Assembly: GCA_947629795.1 (NCBI GenBank) | Contig: CANRFC010000020.1 | Span: 1 to 51,390 of the forward strand | Source: an uncultured Oscillospiraceae bacterium | GTDB lineage: Bacteria; Bacillota; Clostridia; Oscillospirales; Oscillospiraceae | Direction: 5' to 3' | Length of the DNA stretch: 51,390 bases | Notes under the pieces: model-generated | What the model was told of the DNA's origin: nothing | The model's input: only the letters and a program-made list of their open reading frames with translations | The model's database searches: none | Position numbers and translations under genes: made by a program | Shown: one piece after another, positions 1,685 through 21,936 of the stretch | How positions within the stretch are numbered: position 1 is the stretch's first letter | Layout: each line of letters opens with the position of its first letter

Positions 1685-2242
1685 TTAGTACAGCGCGTCG
1701 CAGATCTCCTGGTACCGGTCGTAAGGGGAGAAACGGCCGTTGTCTGTGGTGCTGGTCCGGGGCAGGCTCTCACAGCGCTTGCTCCCGTCGGCATTGGTCT
1801 CTCCCTCCATGAGCTGGATCAGCTCCCGGCACAGGGCGTATTTTTCCTTGGCAAAGGCCTCGTCGATCTGCCAGAACAGGTCCATGGCCCGGGCTTGGTC
1901 CTTCAATTGGTCGCTCTGGGCCGCAGCCTGGTCGGTGAGGGCCGCCACGTCGGCCTGGAGCTTGTCCTGCTCCTCTTGAAGTGCCTCCACCTGCTCCCGC
2001 AGCGTCTTGTTTTCCTCCATCAGGTTCTGAAGGGACTCCACAGCCGAGGCCGATTGCTTCATTGCGTCGCTGGTGGCCTCGGAATTCAGCCGCTGCTGCT
2101 GGAAGTAGGCCATGAGCAGCAGCAGGAAGGCCACGGCAAACAGGATGACCAGATAGCCCAGCACCGAATGCTGCCGGGCGGGGTGGGAGCGCCGCCGCGG
2201 AGGGCGTTCCTGCTGAGAGGTCTCATCACCGGGTTCCCTCAA
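1685..2242 (-). CDS. Hypothetical membrane-anchored coiled-coil protein
   Basis: I do not recognise a family. The 185-residue product has a basic N-terminus (RPPRRRSHPAR), one membrane helix at about 28-46 (YLVILFAVAFLLLLMAYF), a long predicted coiled coil at about 60-110 rich in Glu, Gln and Leu, and a soluble C-terminus. The topology is probably N-in with the coiled coil outside. The start is a TTG at 2242 with a strong AAGGGAGG Shine-Dalgarno 9 nt upstream, overlapping the parB stop by 4 bp, which argues for translational coupling with parB. Its place between parB and serS suggests a house-keeping or segregation-linked role, but nothing in the sequence shows one. Confidence 0.85.
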   Translation of the reverse strand: MREPGDETSQQERPPRRRSHPARQHSVLGYLVILFAVAFLLLLMAYFQQQRLNSEATSDAMKQSASAVESLQNLMEENKTLREQVEALQEEQDKLQADVAALTDQAAAQSDQLKDQARAMDLFWQIDEAFAKEKYALCRELIQLMEGETNADGSKRCESLPRTSTTDNGRFSPYDRYQEICDALY

Positions 2243-3132
2243 TGGACCGAGCCTCCCTTCGGCGCGGCCTTCACCTGCTCCAGAAGGTCCAGCAGGTCGT
2301 TGAGGTCATCGTCACTGTAATATTCCAGGACCACCTTGCCCTTTTTGCCTCCGTGGGTGATGTCCACCCGGCGGCCGAAGCGGTCGGAGAGCTCCTTGGC
2401 GGCGGCGTCCCGGTAGAGCTTATAGGGGTCGGCGGGACGGGCAGGCTTCTCCAGGGGCTCGGCGGCGTCCAGGAGCTTCTTGGCCAGGGCCTCGGTCTGC
2501 CGCACCGACAGGCCGCCATCCACCACCTGCTGGGCCAGCTTGCGCATCAGGTCGTTGCGGCCGGCGGACAGGATGGCCTTGGCATGGCCGGCGGAGAGCT
2601 TGCCCTCCTCCAACAGCTGGCACACCGCATCGGGCAGGTCCAGCAGCCGCACCGAGTTGGCGATGGTGCTCCGGGAGCGGCCCATCCGCAGGGAGAGCTC
2701 CTCCTGGGTCAGGCCGTAGTCCTCGATGAGGGTCTTGTAGCCCTTGGCTTCCTCGATGGGGTTCAGGTCCTCCCGCTGGAGGTTTTCGATCATGGCCAGC
2801 TCGGCGGCCTTGCGGTCGTCGGCCTCGATGACCACGGCGGGGACCTCTTTCAGGCCGGCCAGCTTGGCGGCCCGCCACCGCCGCTCGCCGGCGATGACCT
2901 GGTAGTAGCCCGAGCTCAGCCGGCGGACGGTGAGGGGCTGGATGATGCCGTAGGTGCGGATGGAGTCGGCCAGGTCGGCCAGAGCTTCCTCGTCAAACCG
3001 CTTCCGGGGCTGGTTCAGAGCAGGCTGGACCTGGGAAATGGGCAGGTTCAGGGTGCCGGAGGTTTCGGGCTGGAGGGCGGCGTCCCCCATGAGGGCGCCC
3101 AGGCCCTTGCCCAAACCGCGTTCTTTTGCCAT
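2239..3132 (-). CDS. parB: Chromosome partitioning protein ParB (Spo0J)
   Basis: ParB-family CTPase clamp that loads at parS and spreads to organise the origin region for ParA and SMC. Starting at the ATG at 3132 (AAAGGA 8-9 nt upstream) gives 297 residues. Visible features are the N-terminal ParA-contact box GLGKGLGALMG (6-16), the CTP-binding GERRWRAAKLAG (82-93), ENLQREDLNPIEEA (116-129), and a helix-turn-helix at about 141-165 (LTQEELSLRMGRSRSTIANS). A longer frame reaching 3219 would translate the parS palindrome and is not credible. A perfect parS (3169-3184) lies 37 bp upstream, so autoregulation by ParB or Noc is plausible. Confidence 0.97.
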   Translation of the reverse strand: MAKERGLGKGLGALMGDAALQPETSGTLNLPISQVQPALNQPRKRFDEEALADLADSIRTYGIIQPLTVRRLSSGYYQVIAGERRWRAAKLAGLKEVPAVVIEADDRKAAELAMIENLQREDLNPIEEAKGYKTLIEDYGLTQEELSLRMGRSRSTIANSVRLLDLPDAVCQLLEEGKLSAGHAKAILSAGRNDLMRKLAQQVVDGGLSVRQTEALAKKLLDAAEPLEKPARPADPYKLYRDAAAKELSDRFGRRVDITHGGKKGKVVLEYYSDDDLNDLLDLLEQVKAAPKGGSVH

Positions 3133-3168
3133 GTGATCGGTCCTTTCTGATGGTGTGATGGATGAAAA

Positions 3169-3184
3169 TGTTCCACGTGGAACA
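3169..3184. promoter_or_regulatory. parS: parS site upstream of parB
   Basis: TGTTCCACGTGGAACA, a perfect 16-bp palindrome. It differs from the well-known Bacillus subtilis parS (TGTTTCACGTGAAACA) by one symmetric base-pair change in each half. It lies between parA and parB. Confidence 0.93.
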
Positions 3185-3345
3185 CGTCGGAGCAAGCTTC
3201 GTATCGTTCGCCCTGGCACAAGCGCCAGGGCTCATTCACTCCGCTGGTCTCACCTGCCGGCTCGGTCTTGCGGTACTGCTCGCCACTGGCGAGCACCGCC
3301 CTCCTCTCCCCACAAAGCTGAGGGGCGGCTTTTTTGGGGCCCCAC
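3185..3345 (-). repeat. Recombined copy of the intergenic repeat between parA and parB
   Basis: The head (CGTCGGA after parS) and the tail (CTCTCCCCACAAAGC...GGCGGCTTTTTTGGGGCCCC, given here in parts) match the other units, but the middle is different. It contains two clean hairpins: CCCTGGC/GCCAGGG at about 3212-3230 and TGCTCGCC/GGCGAGCA at about 3277-3295. The modular swap suggests that head and tail are kept while the body varies. Confidence 0.6.
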
Positions 3346-4101
3346 TCAGCTGTTGGCGATGACCTCCTCCGCCAGGGAGGCATAGGCCTCGGCGCCCCGG
3401 GAGTAGGGGTCGTAGGCGTCGATGGGTTTGCCGTGGCTGGGGGCTTCGGAGAGCCGGACGTTCCGGGGGATGACGGTGGCGTAGACCTGGCCGGGGAAGT
3501 GGCGCTTGACCTCCTCGGCCACCTGCATGCTCAGGTTGGTCCGGCTGTCGTACATGGTCAGCAGGACCCCCTCCAGGCGGATGCCGGGGTTCAGGGCCCG
3601 CTTCACCAGCCGGACGGTGCCCAGCAGGTCGCTGAGTCCCTCCAGGGCGTAGTACTCACACTGGACGGGTACCAGCACCGAGTCGGCGGCGCACAGCCCG
3701 TTCAGGGTCAGCAGCTCCAGGGAGGGAGGGCAGTCGATGAGGATGTAGTCGTAGCTGTCGGCCACCGCGTCCAGGGCCTTACGGAGCAGGTGCTCCCGGT
3801 CATCCAGGCCGATCATCTCGATGCCGGCGCCGGCCAGGGACTTGGTGGCGGGGAGCACATCGCAGTAGGGGGTGGAGAGCACCGCCTTGGCGGGCTCAGC
3901 CCCGTCGATGAGGACCTCGTAGATACTGGGGTTGGCGGTGGTCTTGTCCACGCCCACCCCGGAGGTGGCGTTGGCTTGGGGGTCAAAATCACAGACCAAC
4001 ACCCGCTTTCCCTTGGCCCGCAAGGCCGAGGCCAGGTTCACACAGGTGGTGGTCTTTCCCACGCCGCCCTTTTGATTGACGATCGCAATTCGTTTTGCCA
4101 T
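3346..4101 (-). CDS. parA: Chromosome partitioning ATPase ParA (Soj)
   Basis: Cytoplasmic Walker-type ATPase that acts with ParB-parS in origin segregation and, in Bacillota, in control of DnaA. The 251-residue length matches chromosomal Soj. The deviant Walker A is KGGVGKTT (11-18) with the signature lysine, followed by DFDPQANAT near 38-46 and Walker B YDYILIDCPPS near 118-128. The ATG at 4101 has AAAGG 9 nt upstream and is served by a near-consensus promoter (TTGAAA-17-TATAAT) at 4134-4162. A parS lies 27 bp upstream of that -35. Confidence 0.97.
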   Translation of the reverse strand: MAKRIAIVNQKGGVGKTTTCVNLASALRAKGKRVLVCDFDPQANATSGVGVDKTTANPSIYEVLIDGAEPAKAVLSTPYCDVLPATKSLAGAGIEMIGLDDREHLLRKALDAVADSYDYILIDCPPSLELLTLNGLCAADSVLVPVQCEYYALEGLSDLLGTVRLVKRALNPGIRLEGVLLTMYDSRTNLSMQVAEEVKRHFPGQVYATVIPRNVRLSEAPSHGKPIDAYDPYSRGAEAYASLAEEVIANS

Positions 4102-4133
4102 AGCATACAGCCTTTCTTTTTGTCGTGATTCCT

Positions 4134-4162
4134 ATTATACCCAAGCGCAAGATGCTTTTCAA
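4134..4162 (-). promoter_or_regulatory. Sigma-A promoter of parA
   Basis: On the minus strand: TTGAAA (4162-4157), 17-bp spacer, TATAAT (4139-4134). The transcript would start near 4127, about 25 nt before the parA ATG. The neighbouring parS at 4189-4204 is close enough for bound ParB or Noc to affect it. Confidence 0.85.
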
Positions 4163-4188
4163 GGGCCCAGGCAAAAAAAGCCACCGAA

Positions 4189-4204
4189 TGTTCCACGTGG
4201 AACG
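4189..4204. promoter_or_regulatory. parS: parS site upstream of parA promoter
   Basis: TGTTCCACGTGGAACG, one mismatch from the perfect palindrome at the last base. The CGTGTCGGAAGAA that overlaps and follows it matches the head of the intergenic repeat. Confidence 0.88.
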
Positions 4205-4310
4205 TGTCGGAAGAAACCTGCTCCATTCCGCTTCCGCCTGACGGCGAAAGCTCCATATCCGCAGGTCCCTTCCTCCTTTCCGGCCAAAAGCTGAGGAGCG
4301 CTTTTGGCCG
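4205..4310 (-). repeat. Intergenic repeat unit between noc and parA, with compensated hairpin
   Basis: Shares the head (GAAGAAACCTGCTCC, TTCCGCTTCCG) and the CTTCCTCCTTTCC block with the units at 1444-1678. Its terminal hairpin has arms GGCCAAAAGC (4282-4291) and GCTTTTGGCC (4300-4309). Compared with CCCCAAAAGCC/GGCTTTTGGGG in the other copies, both arms changed together and pairing was kept, which supports a structural role. Confidence 0.8.
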
Positions 4311-4354
4311 GCCAGGGTCAAGACCGGATGGGGGAGAAAGGGGTGACCCAAAAA

Positions 4355-4370
4355 TGTTCCACGTGGAACA
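4355..4370. promoter_or_regulatory. parS: parS site downstream of noc
   Basis: TGTTCCACGTGGAACA, perfect palindrome, 44 bp from centre to centre of the next parS. Confidence 0.93.
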
Positions 4371-4392
4371 TTAAAAGTAATTTATAAGAAAG

Positions 4393-4420
4393 CCCCAATG
4401 TTCCACGTGGAACATTGGGG
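4393..4420. promoter_or_regulatory. parS: parS site inside a 28-bp perfect palindrome
   Basis: The 16-bp core TGTTCCACGTGGAACA at 4399-4414 is flanked by CCCCAA on the left and TTGGGG on the right, so the palindrome extends to 28 bp without a mismatch. It would also form a strong RNA hairpin if transcribed, and could therefore serve as the 3' stem of the noc message. Confidence 0.92.
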
Positions 4421-4492
4421 GAGAAAATGAAGAAGTCAAAATGGAGGCGCAGAAAAGCGGCCCGCGGAGACATGGAGCGGGAAATACAAAGC

Positions 4493-5290
4493 CTAACGGG
4501 GGATGTGGATGGTGAGGGTGATCTCACCCTCGGTGTCCTGGCGCTGGCAGGCGGCTTGGATGCCGGAGGACTGCATCAGGTCCAGGGCATGCTTGATGGT
4601 ATTGAGGAAAAGGCGCACATCCTTAATTAAAAAGGTGGGCTTGACCGCTTTGGCCGGGGGCGGGGCCAGAAGGGAGGCCACGTAGCTCTCGGTCTTGGCC
4701 ACGGTGAAGCCGCCCTCCGCCGCGGCCTGGGCGGCCTTTTCCTGAAGGATGGGGGCGTCCAGCCGCAGGAGGGCCCGGGCGTGGCGCTCGGTGAGCCCGG
4801 CCTGGCGGAGGATGGTGAGGGCCTGGGGGGAGAGCTTGAGCAGGCGGAGCTTGTTGGCCACGGCAGACTGGCTCTTGCCCAACTGGCGGGCCAGGGCCTC
4901 CTGGGTCTGGCCAGTGGCGTCCAGAAGGGCCTGGAGGGCCTGGGCTTCCTCCCAGAAGTCCAGGTCCCGCCGCTGGACGTTCTCAATGAGGGCCAGGAGG
5001 GAGGACTCGGTCTCGTCGGCGGTGACCACGATACAGGGGACCTCAGTCAGGCCGGCCAGCTTGGCCGCCCGCAGCCGCCGCTCGCCGGAGATGAGCTCGT
5101 AGCGCTCGCCGGAGCGGCGGACCGAGAGGGGCTGGAGGATACCGTGCTGGGAAATGCTGGAAGCCAATTCCTCCAGGCCCTCCCGGGAGAAGTGGCGGCG
5201 GGGCTGGTTGGGATTGGGGACTAGGGCGGTGATGGGCAGGAAAAGGACACGGCCAGTCTCGAAAAGGCCCTTTTTGCGGAGAAAAGACAT
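4493..5290 (-). CDS. noc: Nucleoid occlusion protein Noc, ParB family
   Basis: A second ParB-family CTPase, 265 residues. The CTP-binding GERRLRAAKLAG is at 69-80, ENVQRRDLDFWEEA at 103-116, and the helix-turn-helix at 129-152. The HTH segment GKSQSAVANKLRLLKL is the form typical of Noc rather than Spo0J. In Bacillus Noc binds its own sites and the membrane through an N-terminal amphipathic helix to keep FtsZ off the nucleoid; the start here, MSFLRKKGLF, is short, basic and hydrophobic and fits such a helix. The family assignment rests on these residues and on the noc-parA-parB order. ATG at 5290 has AGAGGGG 7 nt upstream and a promoter at 5312-5341. If it is not Noc it is a second parS-binding ParB. 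Confidence 0.88.
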   Translation of the reverse strand: MSFLRKKGLFETGRVLFLPITALVPNPNQPRRHFSREGLEELASSISQHGILQPLSVRRSGERYELISGERRLRAAKLAGLTEVPCIVVTADETESSLLALIENVQRRDLDFWEEAQALQALLDATGQTQEALARQLGKSQSAVANKLRLLKLSPQALTILRQAGLTERHARALLRLDAPILQEKAAQAAAEGGFTVAKTESYVASLLAPPPAKAVKPTFLIKDVRLFLNTIKHALDLMQSSGIQAACQRQDTEGEITLTIHIPR

Positions 5291-7969: not shown

Positions 7970-8044
7970 GAGAGCCTCCTTTAATATGTATGGCGAGAGG
8001 GGCGGCCGGAGGGCAAAAAAGGGCTCCGGCGCGGTTTCGTTTGC

Positions 8045-8073
8045 AGTATAGCACAGGAAATCGGGAAACACAA
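8045..8073 (-). promoter_or_regulatory. Promoter of the SLH/GH18-YitT unit
   Basis: Minus strand TTGTGT (8073-8068), 17-bp spacer, TATACT (8050-8045). The 5' UTR of about 70 nt contains a hairpin with arms CCGGAG and CTCCGG. Confidence 0.75.
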
Positions 8074-8160
8074 CGGCAAAAAGGAGGAAAAGAACGGGAT
8101 ATCGGCAAGTTGTACAAAAGTGAGGAAAGAAGGCCCTTGCGCTTTCGGATGCAATAAGAC

Positions 8161-8189
8161 TTGCATTTTTCCCCTGTAACCTGTACAAT
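8161..8189 (+). promoter_or_regulatory. Promoter of xpt
   Basis: TTGCAT (8161-8166), 17-bp spacer, TACAAT (8184-8189). Transcription would begin near 8196, only about 25 nt before the xpt start, which leaves no room for a purine riboswitch in front of xpt, unlike Bacillus subtilis. Confidence 0.75.
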
Positions 8190-8220
8190 GAAAACAGAAA
8201 GAGAGACGGGAGGGCGGTCT

Positions 8221-8796
8221 ATGAAGCTGTTGGAGGAGCGCATCCGCAAGGATGGCAAGATCCGGGGCGGAGGCACCGTACTGAAGGTAGGCAGCTTTCT
8301 CAACCACCAGATCGACGTGGATCTCTACAATGAGATCGGCAAGGAGTTCTTCCGGCTCTTCGGCCAGGACGGAGTCACCAAGATCCTGACCATCGAGGCC
8401 AGCGGCATTGGTATCGCCTGCATCGCCGGACAGTATTTCCACGTGCCGGTGATCTTCGCCAAGAAGTCCAAGACCAAGAATATCGACGGCGAGGTCTATA
8501 CCGCCAGCGTGCAGTCCTTCACCCACGCCAACATCTACACCATCATGGTGGAGAAGGAGTTCATCCAGCCCCAGGACCGGGTGCTCCTCATCGACGACTT
8601 CCTGGCCAACGGCGCCGCTCTGGATGGGCTCATCCAGGTGGTGGACCAGGCGGGGGCCACCCTGGTGGGGGCCGGCGTGTGCGTGGAAAAGGCCTTCCAG
8701 CCCGGCGGGGAGCGCATCCGCTCCCGGGGGGTGCGGGTAGAGGCCCTGGCCCGGGTGGCCAGTATGAGCGAAGAGGAAGGCGTGACCTTCTGCTGA
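8221..8796 (+). CDS. xpt: Xanthine phosphoribosyltransferase
   Basis: Cytoplasmic type I phosphoribosyltransferase that joins xanthine to PRPP to give XMP (purine salvage). The 191-residue protein follows Bacillus Xpt closely along its length: KVGSFLNHQID (22-32), ITIEASGIG-like region at 57-65, ARKH-equivalent FAKKSK, TASVQSFT, and the PRPP-binding loop VLLIDDFLANGAA (121-133). The ATG at 8221 has GGGAGGG about 8 nt upstream. It precedes a structured leader and a nucleoside-type ABC transporter on the same strand and may be cotranscribed with them. Confidence 0.95.
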   Translation: MKLLEERIRKDGKIRGGGTVLKVGSFLNHQIDVDLYNEIGKEFFRLFGQDGVTKILTIEASGIGIACIAGQYFHVPVIFAKKSKTKNIDGEVYTASVQSFTHANIYTIMVEKEFIQPQDRVLLIDDFLANGAALDGLIQVVDQAGATLVGAGVCVEKAFQPGGERIRSRGVRVEALARVASMSEEEGVTFC

Positions 8797-8810
8797 GAAA
8801 AGCCAGGACG

Positions 8811-8977
8811 AAACCGGACAGCCCCAGGGTCCGGCTTTGAGAACAATGGGGGTCCCCGGCGCAAAGACGCACGGGGAAAGGAACCGGGATCAGACCCGGC
8901 AACGTGCTGCCACAGGCGTGTAAGACGTGATGAGTGGATTTTGGGATAAGGAGTACAGGGAAACTGGGCTCCTTTTT
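8811..8977 (+). ncRNA. Structured leader RNA of unknown class ending in a terminator (candidate riboswitch)
   Basis: The 264 bp between xpt and the transporter lipoprotein gene hold a dense series of stems. H1: AAACCGGAC (8811-8819) with GTCCGGCTTT (8829-8838). H2: CCCCG-GCG (8854-8861) with CGC-A-CGGGG (8868-8876), loop CAAAGA. H3: CCGGG (8884-8888) with CCCGG (8895-8899), loop ATCAGA. A conserved-looking single-stranded tract GTGCTGCCACAGGCG then GTAAGACGTGATGAG follows, and an intrinsic terminator (8948-8977) closes it. This is the layout of an aptamer plus expression platform. It does not show the purine, TPP, SAM, glycine, lysine or guanidine core sequences I know; short stretches recall cobalamin and c-di-GMP-I motifs but neither fits overall. 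Confidence 0.55.
8948..8977 (+). terminator. Attenuator terminator upstream of the nucleoside transporter
   Basis: AAGGAG (8948-8953) and CTCCTT (8969-8974) enclose an inner CAG/CTG pair and a GGAAA loop, followed by TTT (run of five T at 8973-8977). It lies 90 bp before the lipoprotein start, so readthrough would be needed for expression unless a promoter lies inside 8978-9050; I see no good one there. Confidence 0.75.
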
Positions 8978-9066
8978 CTCGTTTCCGAAAACACCGGCAA
9001 AGCGCCGTTTTCATATAAAGGATTATGAGGAAAGAAACCGAAACAACTTTTTAGGAGGAAATGAGC

Positions 9067-10347
9067 ATGAAAAAGAGAACCCTGTCCCTGCTGCTGGCAG
9101 GAGCCCTGACCCTGTCCCTGGCGGCCTGCGGAGGCGGCGCCGCCGAGAGCAAGGCCCCCGAGGAGAGCAAGGCCGTGGAGAGCGCCGCCCCCGCCGAGAG
9201 CCAGGCTCCCGCTGAGTCCGCCGCTCCCGAGAGCAAGAGCGTGAAGGTGGGCCTCATTTGCATCGGCGACGAGAACGACCAGGGCTACACCTACAACTTC
9301 ATCCGGGGCAAGGAGGCCGCCACCGATGCCCTGGCCGCCGAGGGCATCAATGTGGAGTGGGTGGTCAAGTACAACATCGGCGAGGACTCCTCCTGCGAGG
9401 ACGCCAACATCGAGTGCGCCGAGGAGGGCTGCCAGCTGGTCATCAACAACTCCTACGGCTTTGAGCCCTTTATGCTTAAGGTGGTGGACGACTATCCCGA
9501 GGTGGAGTTCGTGGGCTGCACCAACCAGGGCTCCTGGAACGACGGGAAGGACAACACCCACAACGCCTTCGCCAACATCTATGAGGGCCGCTACCTGGCC
9601 GGCGTGGCCGGCGGCATGAAGCTCCAGCAGATGATCGACGCCGGGGAGATCACCGCCGAAGAGGCCGTCATCGGCTATGTGGGCGCCTTCCCCTACGCCG
9701 AGGTCATTTCGGGCTACACCGCCTTCTTCCTGGGCGCCCGCAGCGTGTGCCCCAGCGTGACCATGAAAGTCAAGTACGTCAACTCCTGGTCCAACGCCAC
9801 CGAGGAGTCCAACGCCGCCATCGCTCTGGCTGACGAGGGCTGCAAGCTCATCTCTCAGCACTCCGACAACACCACTCCCGCCACCGCCGCCGAGAGCAAG
9901 GGCGTGTTCCACTGCGGCTACAACAACGACATGACCGGCATCGCCCCCAAGGCCAGCCTGCTCTCCTGCCGCATCGACTGGGCCCCCTACTTTACGTACA
10001 TCATCAAGGCCGTGGCCAACGGTGAGAGCTTCGATCAGGACTGGACCGGCGGCTACGGCGACAACGCCATCGTGGTCACCGACCTCAACGAGGCCATTGC
10101 CGCTCCCGGCACCGCCGAGAAGATGGCCGAGGTGGAGAAGGGCCTGGCCGACGGCTCCATCCAGGTCTTCGACACCAAGACCTTCACCGTGGGCGGCGCT
10201 GAGCTCACCCAGGCCTTCGCCCTGGACACCGACGGGGACTTTGCCCCCGACTCCGAGGAGGCCGTGTTCGACGGCGCCTATCACGAGTCCTACTATCAGT
10301 CCGCTCCCTACTTTGCCATGATCATCGACGGCATCACCGAGGAGTAA
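9067..10347 (+). CDS. BMP-family ABC transporter substrate-binding lipoprotein (nucleoside/purine type)
   Basis: Extracytoplasmic receptor of a nucleoside ABC transporter. The 426-residue product has a lipoprotein signal with lipobox LSLAAC (Cys21), a low-complexity Ala/Glu/Ser/Pro linker at about 22-58, and a BMP (PnrA/Med-like) domain from about 60 to the end, with VGLICIGDENDQGYTYNF at the start, as in periplasmic-type nucleoside binders. I place the start at the second ATG (9067), which is 8 nt from the AGGAGG at 9053-9058; the ATG at 9061 is only 2 nt from it. Four genes (this, ATPase, two permeases) follow the order of the B. subtilis nupNOPQ type system. Members bind nucleosides or purines; the context with xpt and xdh favours purine nucleosides or xanthine-like bases. 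Confidence 0.93.
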   Translation: MKKRTLSLLLAGALTLSLAACGGGAAESKAPEESKAVESAAPAESQAPAESAAPESKSVKVGLICIGDENDQGYTYNFIRGKEAATDALAAEGINVEWVVKYNIGEDSSCEDANIECAEEGCQLVINNSYGFEPFMLKVVDDYPEVEFVGCTNQGSWNDGKDNTHNAFANIYEGRYLAGVAGGMKLQQMIDAGEITAEEAVIGYVGAFPYAEVISGYTAFFLGARSVCPSVTMKVKYVNSWSNATEESNAAIALADEGCKLISQHSDNTTPATAAESKGVFHCGYNNDMTGIAPKASLLSCRIDWAPYFTYIIKAVANGESFDQDWTGGYGDNAIVVTDLNEAIAAPGTAEKMAEVEKGLADGSIQVFDTKTFTVGGAELTQAFALDTDGDFAPDSEEAVFDGAYHESYYQSAPYFAMIIDGITEE

Positions 10348-10476: not shown

Positions 10477-12054
10477 ATGGACAATACCTGTGCGATCCGG
10501 CTCAAGGGCCTGACCAAGCGCTTCGGTTCGGTGGTGGCCAACGACGGCATCGACCTGGAGCTCCGCCGGGGGGAGATCCTGGCCCTCCTGGGGGAGAACG
10601 GCAGCGGGAAGACCACCCTGATGAACATGATCTCGGGCATCTACTTTCCCGACGAGGGCCACATCTATGTGGGCGAGCGGGAGGTCACCATCCGCTCCCC
10701 CAAGGACGCCTTCGATCTGGGCATCGGCATGATCCACCAGCACTACAAGTTGGTGGACGTGTTCACCGCCGCCGAGAACATCGTTTTGGGCCTGGGGGAG
10801 AAGGGAAAGTTCGACAAGCGGGCCATCGCCCGGCGGGTGCGGGAGATCAGCCAGAAGTACGGCTTTGACATCGACCCGGACAAGAAGGTCTACGACATGT
10901 CGGTGTCGGAAAAGCAGACGGTGGAGATCGTGAAGGTCCTCTACCGGGGGGCCGAGATCCTCATCCTGGATGAGCCCACCGCCGTGCTCACCCCCCAGGA
11001 GACCGACAAGCTCTTCGCCGTGCTGCGGAACATGAAGGCCGACGGCAAGGCCATCGTCATCATCACCCACAAGCTCCACGAGGTGCTGGACATCTCCGAC
11101 AAGGTGGCGGTGCTGCGCAAGGGCAAGTACATCGGCACGGTGAACACCGCCGACACCAACGCCCAGGCTCTCACCGAGATGATGGTGGGCCACGCGGTGA
11201 GCCTGAACATCGACCGGCCCATGGCGAAATACCACGACCCCCGGCTGGAGGTCAAGTCCCTGACCGTGGTGAACAAGGAGGGGGTCACCGCCCTGAAAGA
11301 CGTGTCCTTCCTGGCCCGGGGTGGGGAGATCCTGGGCATCGCCGGGGTGGCCGGCTCAGGCCAGAAGGAGCTTCTGGAGGCCATCGCCGGCCTGGACAAG
11401 GGCACCGGCAGCGTGCTCTACTACCCGCCCCACCCCAACTCCGACATCGCCGGCCAGCACGTGCCGGTGGACGTCAACGGGGAGGAGCTCCTGGGCAAGA
11501 CCCCGGCCCAGATCCAGCGCATCGGGGTCTCCCTGGCCTTCGTCCCCGAGGACCGGCTGGGCATGGGTCTGGTGGCCGGCATGGACATGGTGGACAACAT
11601 GATGCTCAAGACCTACCGCCGGGGGAAGGGCCCCTTCGTGGACCGCAAGCCTCCCAAGGACCTGGCCGACGAGCTCATCGACCGGCTGGAGATCGTCACC
11701 CCCGGCACCGCCACCCCGGTGCGCCGGCTCTCCGGCGGCAATGTGCAGAAGGTGCTGGTGGGCCGGGAGATCGCCTCCTCCCCCACGGTGCTGATGACGG
11801 CCTATCCCGTGCGGGGCCTGGACATCAACTCCTCCTATACCATCTACCGCCTGCTCAACGAGCAGAAGATGAAGGGGGTGGCGGTCATCCTGGTGGGGGA
11901 GGACCTGGACGTGCTGCTGGAGCTGTGCGACCGCATCCTCATCCTCTGCGGCGGCCAGGTCTCGGGGATCGTGGACGCCCGCACCGCCACCAAGGAGCAG
12001 ATCGGACTCTATATGACCCACGTGGGTGGGGGAGAGGGGGCTGACAAGGCATGA
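10477..12054 (+). CDS. Nucleoside ABC transporter, double ATP-binding protein
   Basis: Cytoplasmic energiser of the BMP-type importer, 525 residues with two ABC domains in one chain as in NupO/YufO. Domain 1 (about 6-240): Walker A GENGSGKTT (39-47), Q-loop MIHQHYKLVDVFTAAEN, signature MSVSEKQTVEI (a degenerate LSGGQ), Walker B ILILDEPTAVLTPQE. Domain 2 (about 255-510): degenerate Walker A GVAGSGQKELLEA, canonical LSGGNVQKVLVGREI, and VLMTAYPVRGLD in place of Walker B. This asymmetry is usual for the family. The ATG at 10477 has AGAGGTGA upstream. It overlaps the next gene by 4 bp (ATGA). Confidence 0.95.
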   Translation: MDNTCAIRLKGLTKRFGSVVANDGIDLELRRGEILALLGENGSGKTTLMNMISGIYFPDEGHIYVGEREVTIRSPKDAFDLGIGMIHQHYKLVDVFTAAENIVLGLGEKGKFDKRAIARRVREISQKYGFDIDPDKKVYDMSVSEKQTVEIVKVLYRGAEILILDEPTAVLTPQETDKLFAVLRNMKADGKAIVIITHKLHEVLDISDKVAVLRKGKYIGTVNTADTNAQALTEMMVGHAVSLNIDRPMAKYHDPRLEVKSLTVVNKEGVTALKDVSFLARGGEILGIAGVAGSGQKELLEAIAGLDKGTGSVLYYPPHPNSDIAGQHVPVDVNGEELLGKTPAQIQRIGVSLAFVPEDRLGMGLVAGMDMVDNMMLKTYRRGKGPFVDRKPPKDLADELIDRLEIVTPGTATPVRRLSGGNVQKVLVGREIASSPTVLMTAYPVRGLDINSSYTIYRLLNEQKMKGVAVILVGEDLDVLLELCDRILILCGGQVSGIVDARTATKEQIGLYMTHVGGGEGADKA

Positions 12055-13166
12055 CGGGCAAGAAGACACCTCTCATCCGCCTGGCAAAGCGGGACGCCAT
12101 GCCCTCCTGGCAGCGGTGGGCCATCCGCCTGGCCGCCATCGTCCTGGCCCTGCTGGTGGGCGGCGTGGTCATGGCCGCCGTCATCTCCCCGGACAACGGG
12201 AACTTCTTCCGGCGCTTTATCGGGGCCTACGCCACCGTGCTGGACGGCGCCCTGGGCAAGAAGACCGCCATCCGCCAGACGGTGAAGAACTTCATCCCCT
12301 TGCTGGGCACCGCCCTGGCCATCGCCCCTTGCTTCAAGATGCGGTTCTGGAACATCGGCGCCGAGGGCCAGATCACCGCCGGGGCCGTGTGCGCCACCTA
12401 CTTCGCTCTCTTCTGGGCCGACAAGCTCCCCCAGGTGCCTCTGCTGCTGATCATGGCGGCGGCCGGCGCCCTGGGGGGCGGGCTGTGGGCCCTGGTGCCT
12501 GCCTTCTTCAAGGCCAGGTGGGGCACCAACGAGACCCTGTTCACCCTGATGATGAACTACATCGTCATCGGCTTTGTCAAATGGCTCCAGGGCGGCCCCT
12601 GGGAGAAGCAGCCCAAGGGCAGCCAGCAGATCGCCCAGTTCGCCGAAAACGCCTGCCTGCCCAAGGTGGCGGGGGTCTACTGCGGCTGGATCGTGGTGTT
12701 GGTGCTCATGGTGGTCATGTTCCTCTATATGAAGTACACCAAACAGGGCTATGAGATCGCCGTGGTGGGGGAGTCGGAGCGCACCGCCCGCTACGCCGGC
12801 ATGAACGTGGGAAAGATCGTCATGCGCACCATGTTCCTCTCGGGCGCCATCGCCGGCATCGTGGGCTTCCTGCTGGTGTCCGGCGCCAACAACACCCTCT
12901 ACGACGGGGTGGCCGACGGGGCGGGCTTCACCGCCATCACCGTGGCCTGGCTCTCCCAGCTCAACCCTTTCGGCATGGCGGGGATCTCGGCCATGCTGGC
13001 GGTGCTGGAGAAGGGCTCCGACACCCTCCAGACCCGGATGGCGGTGCCGGTGGCCATCTCCGACGTGATCACCGGCGTGCTCCTGTTCTTCATGCTGGGG
13101 TGCGAGTTCTTTATCCGCTACAAGGTCATCTTCCGGGGTCGTGAGGAGAAGGAGGGGACGAAATGA
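12051..13166 (+). CDS. Nucleoside ABC transporter permease 1
   Basis: Integral membrane subunit of the BMP-type importer (BPD_transp_2 family), 371 residues. After a basic cytoplasmic N-terminus, hydrophobic segments begin near 24-45 (WAIRLAAIVLALLVGGVVMA). The family signature FWNIGAEGQITAGAVCATYF is near 98-117, and GESERTARYAGMNVGK near 240-255 is the cytoplasmic loop that meets the ATPase. Start ATG overlaps the ATPase stop by 4 bp; its own stop overlaps the next start by 4 bp, so the three genes are translationally coupled. Confidence 0.93.
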   Translation: MTGKKTPLIRLAKRDAMPSWQRWAIRLAAIVLALLVGGVVMAAVISPDNGNFFRRFIGAYATVLDGALGKKTAIRQTVKNFIPLLGTALAIAPCFKMRFWNIGAEGQITAGAVCATYFALFWADKLPQVPLLLIMAAAGALGGGLWALVPAFFKARWGTNETLFTLMMNYIVIGFVKWLQGGPWEKQPKGSQQIAQFAENACLPKVAGVYCGWIVVLVLMVVMFLYMKYTKQGYEIAVVGESERTARYAGMNVGKIVMRTMFLSGAIAGIVGFLLVSGANNTLYDGVADGAGFTAITVAWLSQLNPFGMAGISAMLAVLEKGSDTLQTRMAVPVAISDVITGVLLFFMLGCEFFIRYKVIFRGREEKEGTK

Positions 13167-14146
13167 ACGGGATCCTGAAGCTCATTGTGGCCGCCATCTT
13201 CAACGGCACCCCCCTCCTCTACGGTACGGTGGGGGAGGTCCTCACCGAGAAGTCGGGCAACCTGAACCTGGGCGTGGAGGGCATGATGTACATGGGCGGG
13301 GCCCTGGGCCTGGGTGCGGCCTTCTATTACGAAAAGGCGGTCGGCGCCGCCGCCTCGGGGCCGGTGGCCGTGGCCCTGGCCATCCTCTTCGCCTTCCTGG
13401 CGGGGGCGGCGGGGGCCCTGATCTTCTCCTTCCTCACGGTCTCCCTCCGGGCCAACCAGAACGTCACCGGCCTGGCACTGACCATTTTCGGCACCGGCGT
13501 GGGCCAGTTCCTGGGGGAGTACATGCGGGTGCGGGAACAGGGCTACGTGGCGGTGAGCAACAGCCTGAAGGCCGCCTTCCAGCTCTCCCCCTTCCCCCGG
13601 TTCCTCCAGGACCTGCCGGTGCTGGGACAGCTCCTCTTCGGCTATAACATCTTCGTCTACCTGGGCATCGCCATCGCCCTGGTCATGGCCTGGTTCCTGG
13701 GCCGGACCCGGGCGGGGCTCCAGCTCCGGGCGGTGGGGGAGTCCCCCGCCACCGCCGACGCGGCGGGTATCAACGTCACCAGGTACAAGTACCTGGCCAC
13801 CGTCATCGGCGGCGGCATCTCGGCCATCGGCGGCATGGTGTACATCATGACGGTGGCCGGGGCGGTGTGGAATCACGAGGGCCTCTCCGGTGAGGGCTGG
13901 CTGGCGGTGGCGCTGGTCATCTTCTGCCTGTGGACCCCCCTCCGGGCCCTGTGGGGCTCCGCCCTCTTCGGCGGGCTCATGGTGCTCTACCTCTACCTGC
14001 CCCTGTCCTTCATTCCCGGCCAGCTCTACAAGATCCTGCCCTACGTGGTCACCGTGGTGGTGCTGGTAGCGGTCTCCCTGCGGCAGAAGCGGGAGAACCA
14101 GCCCCCCGAGAGCCTGGGCAGCGCCTACTTCCGGGAAGAGCGCTGA
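13163..14146 (+). CDS. Nucleoside ABC transporter permease 2
   Basis: Second membrane subunit, 327 residues, same family as the preceding protein (NupQ-like). It opens with GTPLLYGTVGEVLTEKSGNLNLGVEGMM (given in order across about 15-42; the SGNLNLGVEG part is the family signature) and carries the ATPase-contact loop GESPATADAAGINV near 192-205. About eight to nine hydrophobic segments. The start overlaps the upstream stop by 4 bp. A strong bidirectional terminator follows 17 bp after the stop. Confidence 0.94.
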   Translation: MNGILKLIVAAIFNGTPLLYGTVGEVLTEKSGNLNLGVEGMMYMGGALGLGAAFYYEKAVGAAASGPVAVALAILFAFLAGAAGALIFSFLTVSLRANQNVTGLALTIFGTGVGQFLGEYMRVREQGYVAVSNSLKAAFQLSPFPRFLQDLPVLGQLLFGYNIFVYLGIAIALVMAWFLGRTRAGLQLRAVGESPATADAAGINVTRYKYLATVIGGGISAIGGMVYIMTVAGAVWNHEGLSGEGWLAVALVIFCLWTPLRALWGSALFGGLMVLYLYLPLSFIPGQLYKILPYVVTVVVLVAVSLRQKRENQPPESLGSAYFREER

Positions 14147-14204: not shown

Positions 14205-14756
14205 TCAGGGGCGGTCCAGGTCGGCCAGCTCTCTGGCCGGGGCCTCCACCAGCAGGAGGTCCGACGGGTGGGCCTTGATGACCTTGCTGCCCCCCACGTC
14301 CCCGGTGAGGGCCAATAGCTCGCCGAAATATTTCCGGGGAAAGATACAGGGATTCCCCCGCTTTCCCCCGCATCCCAGGGCGCAGATGCGCTCCGGCTGA
14401 GCTCGCCAACCGGCGATCAGGCGCTCCACGCTCTCCCGGGTGAGCCAGGGCTGGTCGCACACGGCGAAGAGGACGGCGTCGGAGCCCTCGGCCACTGCCG
14501 CCAGTCCCAGCCTGACCGACAGGGACTGGCCCTCCTGGGGGTGGGGATTTTTCACCGGAATATAACGAGAATTTGCAGCATCTGCCAATATCTCGTCATA
14601 ACAGCTCACCACTGCCGCCCGGAAGAAGGATGGGGCGGGGAGGGCGGCGAAGGCCCGCCGATAGAGGGGGGCCCCCTCCACCGGGACCAGCAGTTTGTTG
14701 GAGCCGTACCGACTTCCCAGTCCCGCCGCCAAAAGCACCGCCGAGAGAGTGGGCAC
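14205..14756 (-). CDS. MocA-like molybdenum cofactor nucleotidyltransferase
   Basis: NTP transferase of 183 residues in the MobA/MocA (YgfJ) group, which attaches CMP or GMP to the molybdopterin cofactor in the cytoplasm; in selenium-dependent molybdenum hydroxylase systems this form accompanies YqeB, YqeC and XDH. Visible: the nucleotide-binding AVLLAAGLGSRYGSNKLL (6-23), QSLSVRLGL near 76-84, metal-binding VCDQPWLT near 98-105, and CGGKRGNPCIFPRKYF near 125-140. I start it at the GTG at 14756, which has GGAGGTGA about 5 nt upstream; the longer frame runs through the hydantoinase gene. Only 5 bp separate it from that gene, so they form one transcript. Nucleotide specificity cannot be read from sequence alone. 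Confidence 0.9.
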   Translation of the reverse strand: MPTLSAVLLAAGLGSRYGSNKLLVPVEGAPLYRRAFAALPAPSFFRAAVVSCYDEILADAANSRYIPVKNPHPQEGQSLSVRLGLAAVAEGSDAVLFAVCDQPWLTRESVERLIAGWRAQPERICALGCGGKRGNPCIFPRKYFGELLALTGDVGGSKVIKAHPSDLLLVEAPARELADLDRP

Positions 14757-14761
14757 AGACC

Positions 14762-16138
14762 TCACCTCCAGAACTGGGAGGGGCCGCGGGAGACGAACCG
14801 GCCCTGGCCCTCTGTAAGCCGGCCGTCCTCCAGGACCACTTTTCCGTTGAGGAGGACCGTATCCACCCGGCCCCGGACCTTCACGCCCTCGTAGGGGTCG
14901 TAATCGCAGGCCGAGTGGTTCCCCTGGGCTGAGATGACCCCCTCCGGCCGGGGGTCGTAGACCACCACATCGCCGTCGCTCCCCACCGCCAGGACCCCCT
15001 TTTTTGGGTACATGCCAAAGAGTTTGGCGGGGTTTCCGGCCAGGAGCTCCACCATCCGGGAGAGGTCGATCTTTCCCGCCGCCACGCCGTAGGTGTAGAG
15101 CAGCCGCAGCCGGTCCTCCACCCCCGGCATGCCGTTGGGGATGCGGGAGAAATCCTCCTGCCCCAGGGCCTTCACGGCGGTGGTGAAGGAGCAGTGGTCG
15201 GTGCCCACGGTGTCCACCGTGCCGTCGGCGACCGCCTCCCACAGGGCGGCCACATCGGCCTTGGACCGGGCGGGCGGGGAGAAGACGTACTTGGCGCTCT
15301 CGAAGCCGGGGAGGCCATAGACCGAATCGTCCAGGAGCAGATACTGGGGGCAGGTCTCCACATAGAGCTTCTGCCCCCGCCCCCGGGCGGCGCGCACCAG
15401 CTCCAGGGCCCGGGCGGTGGACAGGTGGACGATGTTCACCGCCGCCCCCGCCAGCTCGGCGATGGCCAGATAGCGGCCCACCGCCTCGGCCTCCACCGCC
15501 GCCGGCCGGGCCAGGGGATGGGCGGCGGGGGAGAGGTGCCCGGCGGCCCGCTGCCCGGCGATGCCCAGTTCCACCAGCTCGCCGTTCTCACAGTGGCAGC
15601 CCAGCACGCCGCCCTCTTGGGCGATGGCCTGCATGGCCTCATAGGCCACCGTGTCGCTTACCCGCATGGCGTAGGCCAGGTAGATCTTGTAGGAGGTGAT
15701 CCCCTGGCGGGTCATCTCAGGCAGCTCGGCCCGGATGGCCTCGTTCCAGTCCTTGATGGTCATATGGAAGGAGTAGTTGCAGCTGGAGCGCCCATCGGCC
15801 CGGGCGTGCCAGGTATCCAGGGCAGACTGGAGGGAGGCCCCCTTCTCCGGCTCGGCAAAGTCCAGCACGGTGGTGGTCCCGCCGAAGATGGCCGAGCGGG
15901 TGCCGCTGACCCAGTCGTCGGCGGTCTCGTTGGGCTTGCCCTTGTTCATCTCAAAGTGGGTGTGGGTGTCGATGCAGCCGGGAAGGACCAGCTTCCCGGC
16001 GCAGTCCAGCACCCGGTCGCCCTCCCGGACCGGCAGGCCGGGTCCTACCTCGCAAATGACCCCCTTATGGAGCCGCAGATCGGCCTGCTGCGGCCCAAAA
16101 GGCAGGACAAGAGTTCCGTTTTTCAGGAGTAGAGACAA
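14762..16138 (-). CDS. Dihydropyrimidinase/D-hydantoinase family amidohydrolase
   Basis: Binuclear metal amidohydrolase of 458 residues that opens cyclic amides such as dihydropyrimidines or hydantoins. Metal ligands are present: CIDTHTHFEM (His-x-His, about 53-62), the carbamylated lysine in SYKIYLAYAM (about 148-157), His in GCHCENGEL and NIVHLST, and Asp in VGTDHCSF. The start is a TTG at 16138 with AAGGGG 9 nt upstream; a further upstream ATG at 16201 lacks a ribosome binding site and overlaps the -35 box. It resembles YgeZ/HyuA, which lies beside xdhABC in E. coli. With the mocA-like and XDH genes here, a role in purine breakdown is more likely than pyrimidine breakdown, since no dihydropyrimidine dehydrogenase is visible. 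Confidence 0.93.
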   Translation of the reverse strand: MSLLLKNGTLVLPFGPQQADLRLHKGVICEVGPGLPVREGDRVLDCAGKLVLPGCIDTHTHFEMNKGKPNETADDWVSGTRSAIFGGTTTVLDFAEPEKGASLQSALDTWHARADGRSSCNYSFHMTIKDWNEAIRAELPEMTRQGITSYKIYLAYAMRVSDTVAYEAMQAIAQEGGVLGCHCENGELVELGIAGQRAAGHLSPAAHPLARPAAVEAEAVGRYLAIAELAGAAVNIVHLSTARALELVRAARGRGQKLYVETCPQYLLLDDSVYGLPGFESAKYVFSPPARSKADVAALWEAVADGTVDTVGTDHCSFTTAVKALGQEDFSRIPNGMPGVEDRLRLLYTYGVAAGKIDLSRMVELLAGNPAKLFGMYPKKGVLAVGSDGDVVVYDPRPEGVISAQGNHSACDYDPYEGVKVRGRVDTVLLNGKVVLEDGRLTEGQGRFVSRGPSQFWR

Positions 16139-16172
16139 GAAAGATCGCCCCTTTCCGGCTTGTTCTACCTGC

Positions 16173-16201
16173 AGTATAACGAAAACAGGGCCCAATTGCA
16201 A
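16173..16201 (-). promoter_or_regulatory. Promoter of the hydantoinase-mocA operon
   Basis: Minus strand TTGCAA (16201-16196), 17-bp spacer, TATACT (16178-16173). The divergent xdhA gene has only a weak candidate (-10 TAAAAT near 16269) and no clear -35, so it may need an activator or another sigma factor. Confidence 0.8.
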
Positions 16202-16307
16202 GGGAAAGCCGCCCCCGCCGCTCCCGGGAAAAATTTATTTTTCCCTTCCCTTTCCTCCCCGGATAGAGTAAAATGAAAGCAAGATGAATGAAAAGGAGGG
16301 ACTCCCT

Positions 16308-18623
16308 ATGGAAGTGGGCAAGAGCGCCATCCGGGTGGACGCCGCCGACAAGGTCTCCGGCGGGGCAAAGTACACCGACGATCTCATCCCGCGGCCCCAT
16401 CTGGTGGCCAAGCTCCTCCACGCTGACATTGCCAACGGCGTGGTCAGGGCCATCCACACCCAGGAGGCCGCCAGGCTCCCCGGGGTGGTGAAGATCGTCA
16501 CCTGTTTCGACGTGCCCGACATCCAGTACCCCACCCCCGGTCATCCCTGGTCCACCGAAACGGCCCACCAGGACGTGTCCGACCGGAAGCTGCTGGAGAC
16601 CCGGGTGCGCTATTACGGGGACGACATCGCCGCCGTGGTGGCCGAGGACGAGGTCTCCGCCCAGCGGGCCCTGAAGGCCATCCGGGTGGAGTACGAGGAA
16701 TACGAGCCCCTTCTGACCACCCAGGCCGCCACGGCGGAGGGGGCCCGGCCCATCCACGACGAGCGGCCCAACAACGTACTGGCCTCCATGGACCTGCGCA
16801 CTCCCATGCCTGAGAGCGACTTCAAAACGGTGGAGGATGTGCTTGCCTGCCCCGCCTACCACCAGTTTGAGGGCCACTACCAGACCCAGATGGTCCAGCA
16901 CTGCCACATCGAGCCCGCCGTGAGCTACGCCTATATGGAGGGCGGAAAGATCGTGGTGGTCTCCTCCACCCAGATCCCCCACATCGTCCGCCGGGTGTGC
17001 GGGCAGGCCCTGGGCATCCCCTGGGGGGATATCCGGGTGATCAAGCCCTACATCGGCGGCGGCTTCGGCAACAAGCAGGAGGTACTCTACGAGCCCCTGA
17101 ACGCCTTCCTCACCCGGGCGGTGGGGGGCCGGTGCGTCAAGCTGGAGCTCACCCGGGAGGAGGTTTTCCAAAATACCCGCTCCCGCCACGCCATCTCCTT
17201 CGACGTGAAGGCGGCGGTGGACGGGGACGGCAACCTCATGGCCCGGTGGGTGAAGGCGGTGTCCAACCAGGGCTCCTATGCCTCCCACGGCCACGCCATT
17301 GTGGCCAACGCCGTCACCGGCTTCCGCCAGCTCTACTTAGACCAGCTGGGCTGCCACGCCGAGGCCTGCACCGTGTACACCAACCTCCCCGCCCCCGGCG
17401 CCATGCGGGGCTACGGCATTCCCCAGGGCGACTTCGCCGGGGAGTGCATGATGGAGGATATCGCCCGGAAGTTCGGCCTGGACCCCTACGAGTTCCGGCT
17501 TCGGAACATCATGCCCCTGGGATACGTGGATCCCTTCAACGGCATCACCTGCCACTCCACCGGTCTCAGGGAATGCATGGAGAAGGGGGCCGAGTTCATC
17601 CACTGGAAGGAGCTGCGGGAGAAGTACCAAAACCAGACCGGCCCGGTGCGCCGGGGGGTGGGCATGGCGGTCTTCTCCTACAAGACCGGGGTGTGGCCCA
17701 TTTCCCTGGAGACCGCCTCGGCCCGGATGGTCCTCAACCAGGACGGCTCGGTCCAGCTCCAGCTGGGAGCCACCGAGATCGGCCAGGGAGGCGACACCGT
17801 CTTCTCCCAGATGGCTGCCGAGAGCATTGGTTTCCCCCTGGAACGGGTCCACATCGTGTCCTTCCAGGATACCGACACCGCCCCCTTTGACACCGGGGCC
17901 TACGCCTCCCGGCAGACCTACGTCACTGGCATGGCCATCAAGCAGACCGGGGAGATCTTCAGGGAAAAGCTCCTCCGGTACGCCTCCGAGATGCTGGAGC
18001 GGCCGACGGCGGAGCTGGACGTCCGAAACGGCGAGATCGTGGACGCCGCCACGGGAGAGCAGGTCCTCAGGATGTACGACCTGGCCCAGGAGAGCTTCTA
18101 CTCCTTCCGCCGCACCGAGCACATCGCCGCCGAGTCCACCCACCAATGCAAGGACAACACCTTCGCCTTCGGCGCCTGCTTTGCCGAGGTGGAGGTGGAT
18201 ATCCCCCTGGGGAAGGTGAAGGTCCTGCGGGTGGTGAACGTCCACGACTCGGGCAAGCTCATCAACCCCAAGCTGGCCGAGGCCCAGGTCCACGGCGGCA
18301 TGTCCATGGGACTGGGCTACGCCCTCTCCGAGGAGATGAAGTTCGACGCCAAGGGCAGGCTCCTCAATGGGAACCTGCTGGACTACAAGCTCCCCACCGC
18401 CATGGACCAGCCCGACCTCACCGCCCTCTTCGTGGAGACCGACGACCCCACCGGGCCCTTCGGCAACAAGGCCCTGGGAGAGCCCCCGGCCATCCCGGTG
18501 GCTCCGGCGGTGCGCAACGCCGTCCTCCACGCCACCGGCGTGGCGGTCAACGACCTGCCCCTGAGCCCCCAGAAGCTGGTGGAGAAATTCACCCAGGCGG
18601 GGCTCATCCATAACGGGAGGTGA
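16308..18623 (+). CDS. xdhA: Xanthine dehydrogenase, molybdenum-binding subunit
   Basis: Large catalytic subunit (771 residues; E. coli XdhA is 752) that oxidises hypoxanthine or xanthine using molybdopterin, in clostridia usually with labile selenium. The N-terminal hammerhead domain holds GKSAIRVDAADKVSGGAKY (3-21). Cofactor-binding stretches are GGGFGNKQE (about 249-257), GAMRGYGIPQG (about 364-374) with the active-site arginine, GATEIGQGGDT near 487-497, and GEPPAIPVAPAVRNA near 724-738 with the catalytic glutamate. ATG at 16308 has AAAAGGAGGG 7 nt upstream. It leads the xdhABC operon in the same gene order as E. coli. Strict substrate (xanthine, hypoxanthine, other N-heterocycle) is not proven. 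Confidence 0.96.
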   Translation: MEVGKSAIRVDAADKVSGGAKYTDDLIPRPHLVAKLLHADIANGVVRAIHTQEAARLPGVVKIVTCFDVPDIQYPTPGHPWSTETAHQDVSDRKLLETRVRYYGDDIAAVVAEDEVSAQRALKAIRVEYEEYEPLLTTQAATAEGARPIHDERPNNVLASMDLRTPMPESDFKTVEDVLACPAYHQFEGHYQTQMVQHCHIEPAVSYAYMEGGKIVVVSSTQIPHIVRRVCGQALGIPWGDIRVIKPYIGGGFGNKQEVLYEPLNAFLTRAVGGRCVKLELTREEVFQNTRSRHAISFDVKAAVDGDGNLMARWVKAVSNQGSYASHGHAIVANAVTGFRQLYLDQLGCHAEACTVYTNLPAPGAMRGYGIPQGDFAGECMMEDIARKFGLDPYEFRLRNIMPLGYVDPFNGITCHSTGLRECMEKGAEFIHWKELREKYQNQTGPVRRGVGMAVFSYKTGVWPISLETASARMVLNQDGSVQLQLGATEIGQGGDTVFSQMAAESIGFPLERVHIVSFQDTDTAPFDTGAYASRQTYVTGMAIKQTGEIFREKLLRYASEMLERPTAELDVRNGEIVDAATGEQVLRMYDLAQESFYSFRRTEHIAAESTHQCKDNTFAFGACFAEVEVDIPLGKVKVLRVVNVHDSGKLINPKLAEAQVHGGMSMGLGYALSEEMKFDAKGRLLNGNLLDYKLPTAMDQPDLTALFVETDDPTGPFGNKALGEPPAIPVAPAVRNAVLHATGVAVNDLPLSPQKLVEKFTQAGLIHNGR

Positions 18624-18628
18624 TATTG

Positions 18629-20001: not shown

Positions 20002-20015
20002 GTGAAATGAAAGAA

Positions 20016-20053
20016 GCCCCTGTCTCCGAGAAACCGGAGACAGGGGCATTTTT
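20016..20053. terminator. Bidirectional terminator between xdhC and the lysine transporter operon
   Basis: Perfect 13-bp stem GCCCCTGTCTCCG (20016-20028) with its complement at 20035-20047, six-nt loop, then ATTTTTT. It serves two convergent operons. Confidence 0.95.
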
Positions 20054-20060
20054 TCGTCCT

Positions 20061-20801: not shown

Positions 20802-20802
20802 A

Positions 20803-21678: not shown

Positions 21679-21691
21679 GGCAGCAGGCTCC

Positions 21692-21912: not shown

Positions 21913-21936
21913 TACTTTTCTTTCAAGAAAAGTAGG
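21911..21936 (-). terminator. Perfect hairpin right after the binding-protein stop
   Basis: CCTACTTTTCTT (21911-21922) pairs fully with AAGAAAAGTAGG (21925-21936), two-nt loop. It touches the stop codon. On the minus strand it is followed by CAAAAG rather than a U run, so it may act as a 3' stabiliser or partial terminator that raises binding protein over permease. Confidence 0.7.

Follow-up and report, generated by a model that had tools for sequence, protein, structure and literature searches.

A conserved two-helix RNA in the gap that separates xpt from a BMP-type transporter operon in some Oscillospiraceae: a candidate purine-related riboswitch

Introduction

The purine (guanine-type) riboswitch, RF00167, is a three-way junction, the J2-3/J3-1 core of which has the form GUYUYUACC ... 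GACUAU, with two near forms. In nucleotide salvage operons, PyrR-type attenuators control the read-through of leader RNA in a protein-dependent manner, and PyrR is the precedent for an RNA-binding regulator of the phosphoribosyltransferase fold. Another small RNA of relevance is the pnuC motif (NAD+-II). Its conserved nucleotides are located in an internal bulge between two stems, as described in PMC8632094. The guanine riboswitch variants xanthine-II and guanine-II retain the three-stem junction, according to PMC9295807. Xanthine-I (NMT1) was reported from Proteobacteria (PMC7373994), and in PMC8266621 its junction is described as G7 to G12 (G-A-A-G-C-G) against A39-U40, plus a second bulge.

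In this work we analyse a stretch of 51,390 nucleotides from an uncultured Oscillospiraceae bacterium, the whole of which is called the window below. The segment 8811-8977 of the window lies between xpt and the gene of a BMP/PnrA-like lipoprotein, after which come those of an ABC ATPase and of two permeases. A preliminary description had regarded this entire segment as the element; the part that is conserved proves to be the shorter core 8907-8938, composed of two helices and a 7-nt internal loop, whereas the RF00167 model has 102 positions. It is noted that related genera have RF00167 in this xpt-BMP gap, where it presumably controls the same kind of transporter operon. The three-stem junction that xanthine-II and guanine-II retain is absent in the new element. 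NMT1 is similar in that it is short, has two stems with a conserved bulge at their junction and is associated with purine-oxidation genes, but, compared with the junction cited above, the new element has AG opposite GAUGA and lacks a second conserved bulge; as xanthine-I it was rejected, with no match in the Rfam scans given below and a junction AG/GAUGA, not GAAGCG/AU. The pnuC motif, set beside the element by its description, is similar in having a conserved bulge between two stems and differs in its genes and in giving no match in the Rfam scans of the element. The PyrR-type attenuators, also compared by description, are similar in the control of leader read-through in salvage operons. A literature search covering titles and abstract openings of the papers listed found no such motif described, and the structured RNA is apparently undescribed.

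Results

In the window, xpt (xanthine phosphoribosyltransferase; 8221..8796, plus strand) is identified by NCBIfam NF006671 with 250 bits (cut-off 177) and by TIGR01744 with 230 bits (cut-off 164), and the BMP/PnrA-like substrate-binding lipoprotein gene (9061..10347, plus strand) is identified by Pfam PF02608 with 83 bits (cut-off 24), with its start likely at the second ATG, 9067. The genes of the ABC transporter ATPase and two permeases (10477..14146, plus strand; Pfam ABC_tran and BPD_transp_2 above cut-off) are presumed to be the remainder of the regulated operon. Their order after the BMP gene is identical in all 8 loci of genomes carrying the element (carriers) that were extended. Among the solved relatives of the BMP protein are a basic membrane lipoprotein and an atrazine-binding protein, and the NCBIfam models nearest to the ATPase and permeases, those of a putative B6 transporter, stay below cut-off. 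Downstream of the operon are the genes of hydantoinase, XdhA/B/C and YqeB, each above its NCBIfam cut-off; among the 8 extended carrier loci the hydantoinase gene is present in 4 and the YqeB gene in 3. Together with a MocA-like transferase (below cut-off) these genes of the window form a purine-oxidation island at 14205-24000, anaerobic purine and urate degradation being a topic of PMC11448449 and PMC12507026.

With Rfam 15 at the gathering thresholds, the whole window gives lysine and SSU rRNA matches only. At E<=10, the region 8780-9080 gives nothing relevant, its one match being to a lncRNA (11.7 bits, E 3.1). There is also no relevant match near the core of three representative copies at E<=10, in five loci at E<=1 or in eight extended carrier loci at gathering, RF00167 being looked for in the last as well. 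Thus RF00167 was rejected as an identity of the element, with no match above gathering in the window or in the eight loci, and the J2-3/J3-1 pattern, as given above, is missing from all 11 element-bearing gaps among the 64 compared below. The preliminary description was therefore right that a purine riboswitch core is absent, and its view that the leader falls in no known class survives the Rfam scans. It had also discounted short resemblances to cobalamin and c-di-GMP-I motifs, which by eye is borne out: CGCAAAG is outside the core, GGGAA...TGTAA reaches into the variable hairpin, and neither is conserved.

The fold of the whole leader has z -1.69, with 9 of 200 shuffles equally good, and, being barely above the shuffles, folding alone is insufficient for the claim of a structured RNA. 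The two upstream GC stems (about 8853-8877 and 8884-8902, plus strand) have together, over 8853..8902, z -1.83, a stability equalled by 10 of 200 shuffles. In 6 of the 19 carriers bearing xpt the core starts 30-38 nt past the xpt stop (the range over the 19 being 30-976 nt), and since these short-gap carriers have no room for the two stems, the latter are spacer outside the element. The third stem, 8910-8937, is conserved, yet of ordinary stability (z 0.34). Thus, of the three GC stems proposed before, the first two drop out, while the third is conserved with covariation in 21 genomes. A simple scan of 8000-9100 listed no sigma-70-like promoter. As a side observation on the spacing, the full-length xpt of L049 (minus strand), in G011, ends 386 nt before the core and a duplicate of its last codons ends 29 nt before it, so that this locus has an insertion in which a part of xpt is duplicated.

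The conserved core, CUGCCACAG-hairpin-GUGAUGAGUGGA (8907..8938, plus strand; 32 nt in the window copy), has the consensus CUG-CCRC-AG-hairpin-GAUGA-GYGG-A, and in the gaps upstream it is seen as a recurring motif of CUGCCRCAG, a hairpin and then GUGAUGAGYGGA. Across the 21 aligned copies 20 columns are invariant, every one of them within 8906-8938, where the G at 8906 is invariant too; as the rows were selected by the exact core pattern, this invariance is partly by construction. An earlier pattern tolerated one mismatch per half, and every accepted model match has the core. On the plus strand, the 5' strand of helix 1, CCAC (CCRC; 8910..8913), pairs with the 3' strand, GUGG (GYGG; 8934..8937), as given by the alignment and pair counts, with all 4 positions paired in 21 of 21 copies. 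In the alignment, the internal loop is composed of the 5' strand AG (8914..8915) and the 3' strand GAUGA (8929..8933), both on the plus strand, which enclose the hairpin of helix 2 (8916..8928, plus strand). This hairpin is variable in sequence and length, with two-sided changes in 5 of its 6 pairs and 93.5% of cells paired, and its closing pair beside the loop is G.U, sometimes C-G or A-U. The core length ranges over 32-64 nt across the copies by differences that are not multiples of three, which argues against a coding constraint. What the alignment shows is a conserved sense-strand RNA fold of two helices around a conserved asymmetric AG/GAUGA loop, with conserved CUG and A flanks. Note also that other readings of the same letters were rejected: for UGAUGA as K-turn or hammerhead, considered by eye, the opposite strand reads AG where GA would be needed and there is no subsequent GAAA, and for a leader peptide (AUG AGY GGA UGA) the in-frame stop is absent in the window and in several other copies.

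The pairing was compared with shuffled and with slid alignments. Over helix 1 and helix 2, standard pairs make up 96.1% of cells, as against 83.9% after shuffling and 36-49% after sliding; the cells changed on both sides number 25, as against 6.4 in the shuffles; and the covariation score is 0.391, as against 0.167 for shuffled (0 of 500 reaching it) and at most 0.151 for slid alignments. Two-sided changes occur in 6 of 10 pairs, which 59 of 500 shuffles equal, thus only moderately above chance, and the number of pair types is not above the shuffles (274 of 500 as high). At the one variable pair of helix 1, 17 copies have G-C and 4 have A-U, a switch that needs two changes on the xpt tree, only one of them forced by well-supported branches. 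The G.U pairs (21 cells in three pairs) have the consequence that the fold fits the sense strand only. A hold-out model of 18 copies, from which the window's genus was excluded, recovers the window copy at 35.9 bits (E 1.6e-6); no other site of the window scores above 13.6 bits, the value of the runner-up. In the whole genome of the window the element is again its best match (E 8.6e-5), the next one (C13, 25.5 bits, E 0.02) sitting within an open reading frame, presumably that of a recombinase.

The carriers comprise 21 genomes of six genera and one family, Oscillospiraceae. The searches started from relatives of the BMP protein, gathered at E<=1e-60 from 141 of 250 family genomes, together with 58 loci from a genome collection; apart from the core, the xpt-BMP gap is not alignable by eye across these relatives. 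A DNA search with the whole leader in 60 genomes, its own included, gave beyond itself short matches among those listed, with a best non-self E of 0.001, i.e., nothing significant. One such match, in G011 (E 0.40), is in hindsight a true element, and the DNA search alone would suggest no conservation. The exact pattern occurs in 7 of 300 family genomes, once each, and the reversed pattern in 0 of 300. The covariance model R1, run on 400 family genomes, matched in 62 of them at E<=0.1. The 15 best matches (E<=6.4e-5) were accepted, nine of them known already from the pattern searches and the reading of gaps and six read afterwards; all have the core and all precede a BMP gene, although the scan was gene-blind. 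The 15 next-best among those obtained as loci, L141-L155, were rejected, with no exact core, 5 of them within one mismatch per half and all inside open frames of at least 136 aa. A search of three genera found 8/20, 3/3 and 4/11 carriers, by which six carriers were added, and in the window's own genus 3 of 16 genomes carry the element.

The scans of the order and of the phylum used stricter filters, by which some weak matches were lost. The former, over 394 genomes, gave two true carriers, both members of the family, and the latter, over 398 genomes, gave the window's copy only, so that neither scan found a convincing copy outside the family. The weak R2 matches of the two scans, L164-L169, were also rejected, none being exact, L165 being within one mismatch per half and all being inside open frames of at least 282 aa. 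The distribution is very narrow: 15 accepted matches per 400 genomes of the family, 2 per 394 of the order and 1 per 398 of the phylum. Downstream of the element there is a BMP lipoprotein gene in 21 of 21 carriers, and by tblastn there is xpt upstream in 19 of 21. One of the other two, L101, is at a contig end, with the apparent last xpt codons present; the other, L170, has no xpt within 2.4 kb. In L175, L176 and L177 the BMP gene is a different paralogue (40-43% identity), with the element still present. As only this single gene context occurs, the ligand cannot be triangulated from it.

To see what occupies the position in relatives, 64 xpt-BMP gaps (61 distinct) were compared. The new element is present in 11 of them (9 distinct) and the purine-riboswitch pattern in 16, neither is present in 37 (36 distinct), and both are present together in 0 of 64. 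The pattern was broadened after the gaps had been read. Two of the 16 pattern-matched gaps were put to Rfam and both passed as RF00167 (L057, 72.4 bits; L060, 65.7 bits; cut-off 37), the other 14 being assigned by pattern alone. The 16 gaps are those of L057, L060, L201, L205, L206, L208, L211, L214, L218, L221, L225, L227, L231, L235, L241 and L249. In 53 loci without the core in the gap, the element model found nothing significant (best E 0.33). RF00167 is above cut-off in 5 of 13 carriers searched, each time elsewhere in the genome, and the window's genome (G000, 98.6% complete) has no RF00167 match at E<=0.001, unlike several relatives. Because relatives place an RNA purine sensor in the xpt-BMP gap, a purine-related signal is the first hypothesis here.

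Just after the core of the window there is a terminator-like hairpin with U-tract (8948..8978, plus strand; hairpin 8948-8974). The fold of 8945-8985 has -13.7 kcal/mol and z -2.59, with 3 of 200 shuffles as stable. The hairpin that the preliminary description took for an intrinsic terminator is present, though a simple terminator scan did not list it. This hairpin is the probable expression platform in the window species. A second hairpin, GAAAAC..GGC..GCC.GUUUUC (8987..9012, plus strand), is upstream of the ribosome site; for the fold of 8985-9020, z is -2.70 and the stability is reached by 0 of 200 shuffles. By eye, a similar hairpin with a short U-tract is present in many carriers and in some non-carriers. 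In several carriers the tract after the hairpin is just UUU or UUUU, which is weak for a terminator. Near the BMP ribosome site, L033, L251, L254, L255 and the window (8987-9012) have in common a hairpin that leads into a few U-rich positions and AUA(A/G)-like letters; this arrangement, present in gaps both bearing and lacking the core, may be a weak terminator or mark a promoter.

The conserved 5' strand is able to pair by 7-8 bp with the arm directly before a short U-tract in 9 copies, which belong to two genera, and by 7 and 10 bp with an arm two bases before it in two further copies. For these 11 of the 21 copies at most 7 of 200 shuffles give an equally good competing pairing, and with the 5' strand complementary to the U-tract arm the core fold and the hairpin would be mutually exclusive there. 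Among the other 10 copies, of which the window's is one, there is no standout competing pairing; two of them reach 7 bp, which 26 and 29 of 200 shuffles match. Competition between the core and the terminator-like hairpin is thus supported in part, as a prediction for a part of the family only.

Discussion

Based on the above, we propose that some Oscillospiraceae have, between xpt and a BMP-type ABC operon, an uncatalogued cis-regulatory RNA that is a purine-related riboswitch acting by attenuation, a reading of the aligned copies and their gene context to which we give somewhat better than an even chance. That the structured RNA is real and narrowly distributed is observed. One general mark of a riboswitch, an RNA structure that is conserved and covaries in front of a gene for metabolism or transport, is found here, and the element is probably a riboswitch for a purine-related metabolite. 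The proposal of an undescribed riboswitch made in the preliminary description therefore stands as regards a conserved RNA outside Rfam, while the riboswitch function and the ligand are what we infer. Among the ligands named there, a purine-type signal is supported by the purine riboswitch in the same gap of relatives; nothing points to molybdenum or selenium, although the operon adjoins molybdenum-hydroxylase genes.

In the mechanism that we propose, the AG/GAUGA loop would bind a small purine-related metabolite, and the binding would stabilise CCRC/GYGG. The state of CCRC/GYGG would then decide whether the downstream terminator-like hairpin forms, and this in turn would decide whether the transporter genes are transcribed. 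In the window species the separate hairpin 8948-8978 directly downstream would take this role, the window copy being one without standout competing pairs. The direction of the regulation, on or off, may differ between lineages.

The main rival to the riboswitch is an attenuator in which the core is the site of an RNA-binding protein that controls read-through, either a PyrR-like regulator of the phosphoribosyltransferase fold or the xpt product itself. It is noted that xpt is what normally precedes the element (19 of 21), whereas the BMP paralogue differs in L175, L176 and L177, and that protein sites, too, are typically short, with two helices and an asymmetric internal loop. However, the 36 distinct xpt-BMP gaps with neither the element nor the purine-riboswitch pattern indicate that xpt does not require the element, and in relatives the equivalent gap is occupied by a ligand-binding riboswitch, so that we regard the protein site as unlikely, though still to be reckoned with. 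A weaker case can be made for a processing or stability signal, such as a nuclease site or a protective hairpin, that serves the 3' end of xpt or the 5' end of BMP with no ligand sensing. Such signals usually need less than a conserved internal loop with variable helices, and the conserved loop and freely varying helix of the element exceed those needs; its location in an intercistronic gap would suit such a signal, and so would the occurrence of a hairpin near the BMP ribosome site in core-less gaps also (L033, L254, L255). Yet it is that hairpin which is common to carriers and some non-carriers, and the core is not, which leaves this reading rather improbable.

The two remaining explanations concern the identity of the motif itself. 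Covariance models can miss short motifs, and the element might then belong to a known riboswitch class from which it has diverged strongly. With no relevant Rfam match in three copies (E<=10), five loci (E<=1) or eight loci (gathering), and with another strand pattern in the xanthine-I (NMT1) junction as published, we consider this quite improbable. Motifs that form helices are also inverted repeats, as an operator in DNA would be, and similarity can arise by chance; but the two-sided compensatory changes, the G.U pairs, the variable loop lengths and the reversed pattern in 0 of 300 genomes make a conserved DNA element or a chance similarity scarcely credible.

Returning to the riboswitch, a more specific proposal is that it is a rare new class, for a base, nucleoside, urate or ring-opened purine product, which has been swapped with the guanine-type riboswitch at the same operon position within one family. 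We hold this tentatively, at slightly below an even chance. If it is true, it would be a clear case of two RNA sensors of unrelated structure that take turns at a single operon position. If the element is a riboswitch at all, it would provide a new small RNA class with a predicted ligand type and a ready test system, while with a protein as the signal the salvage operon would have a new attenuator site. Moreover, the neighbourhood is one of purine salvage and oxidation in gut bacteria and bears on urate handling.

Finally, we note two other features of the window. The lysine riboswitch given by Rfam (22984-23155, minus strand, 95.1 bits) suits, in strand and position, a leader for the gene set at 20061-22989, which is that of an amino-acid-type ABC transporter, and at 2239-5290 on the minus strand, judged by eye from the translations, a ParA-like gene lies between two ParB-like genes.
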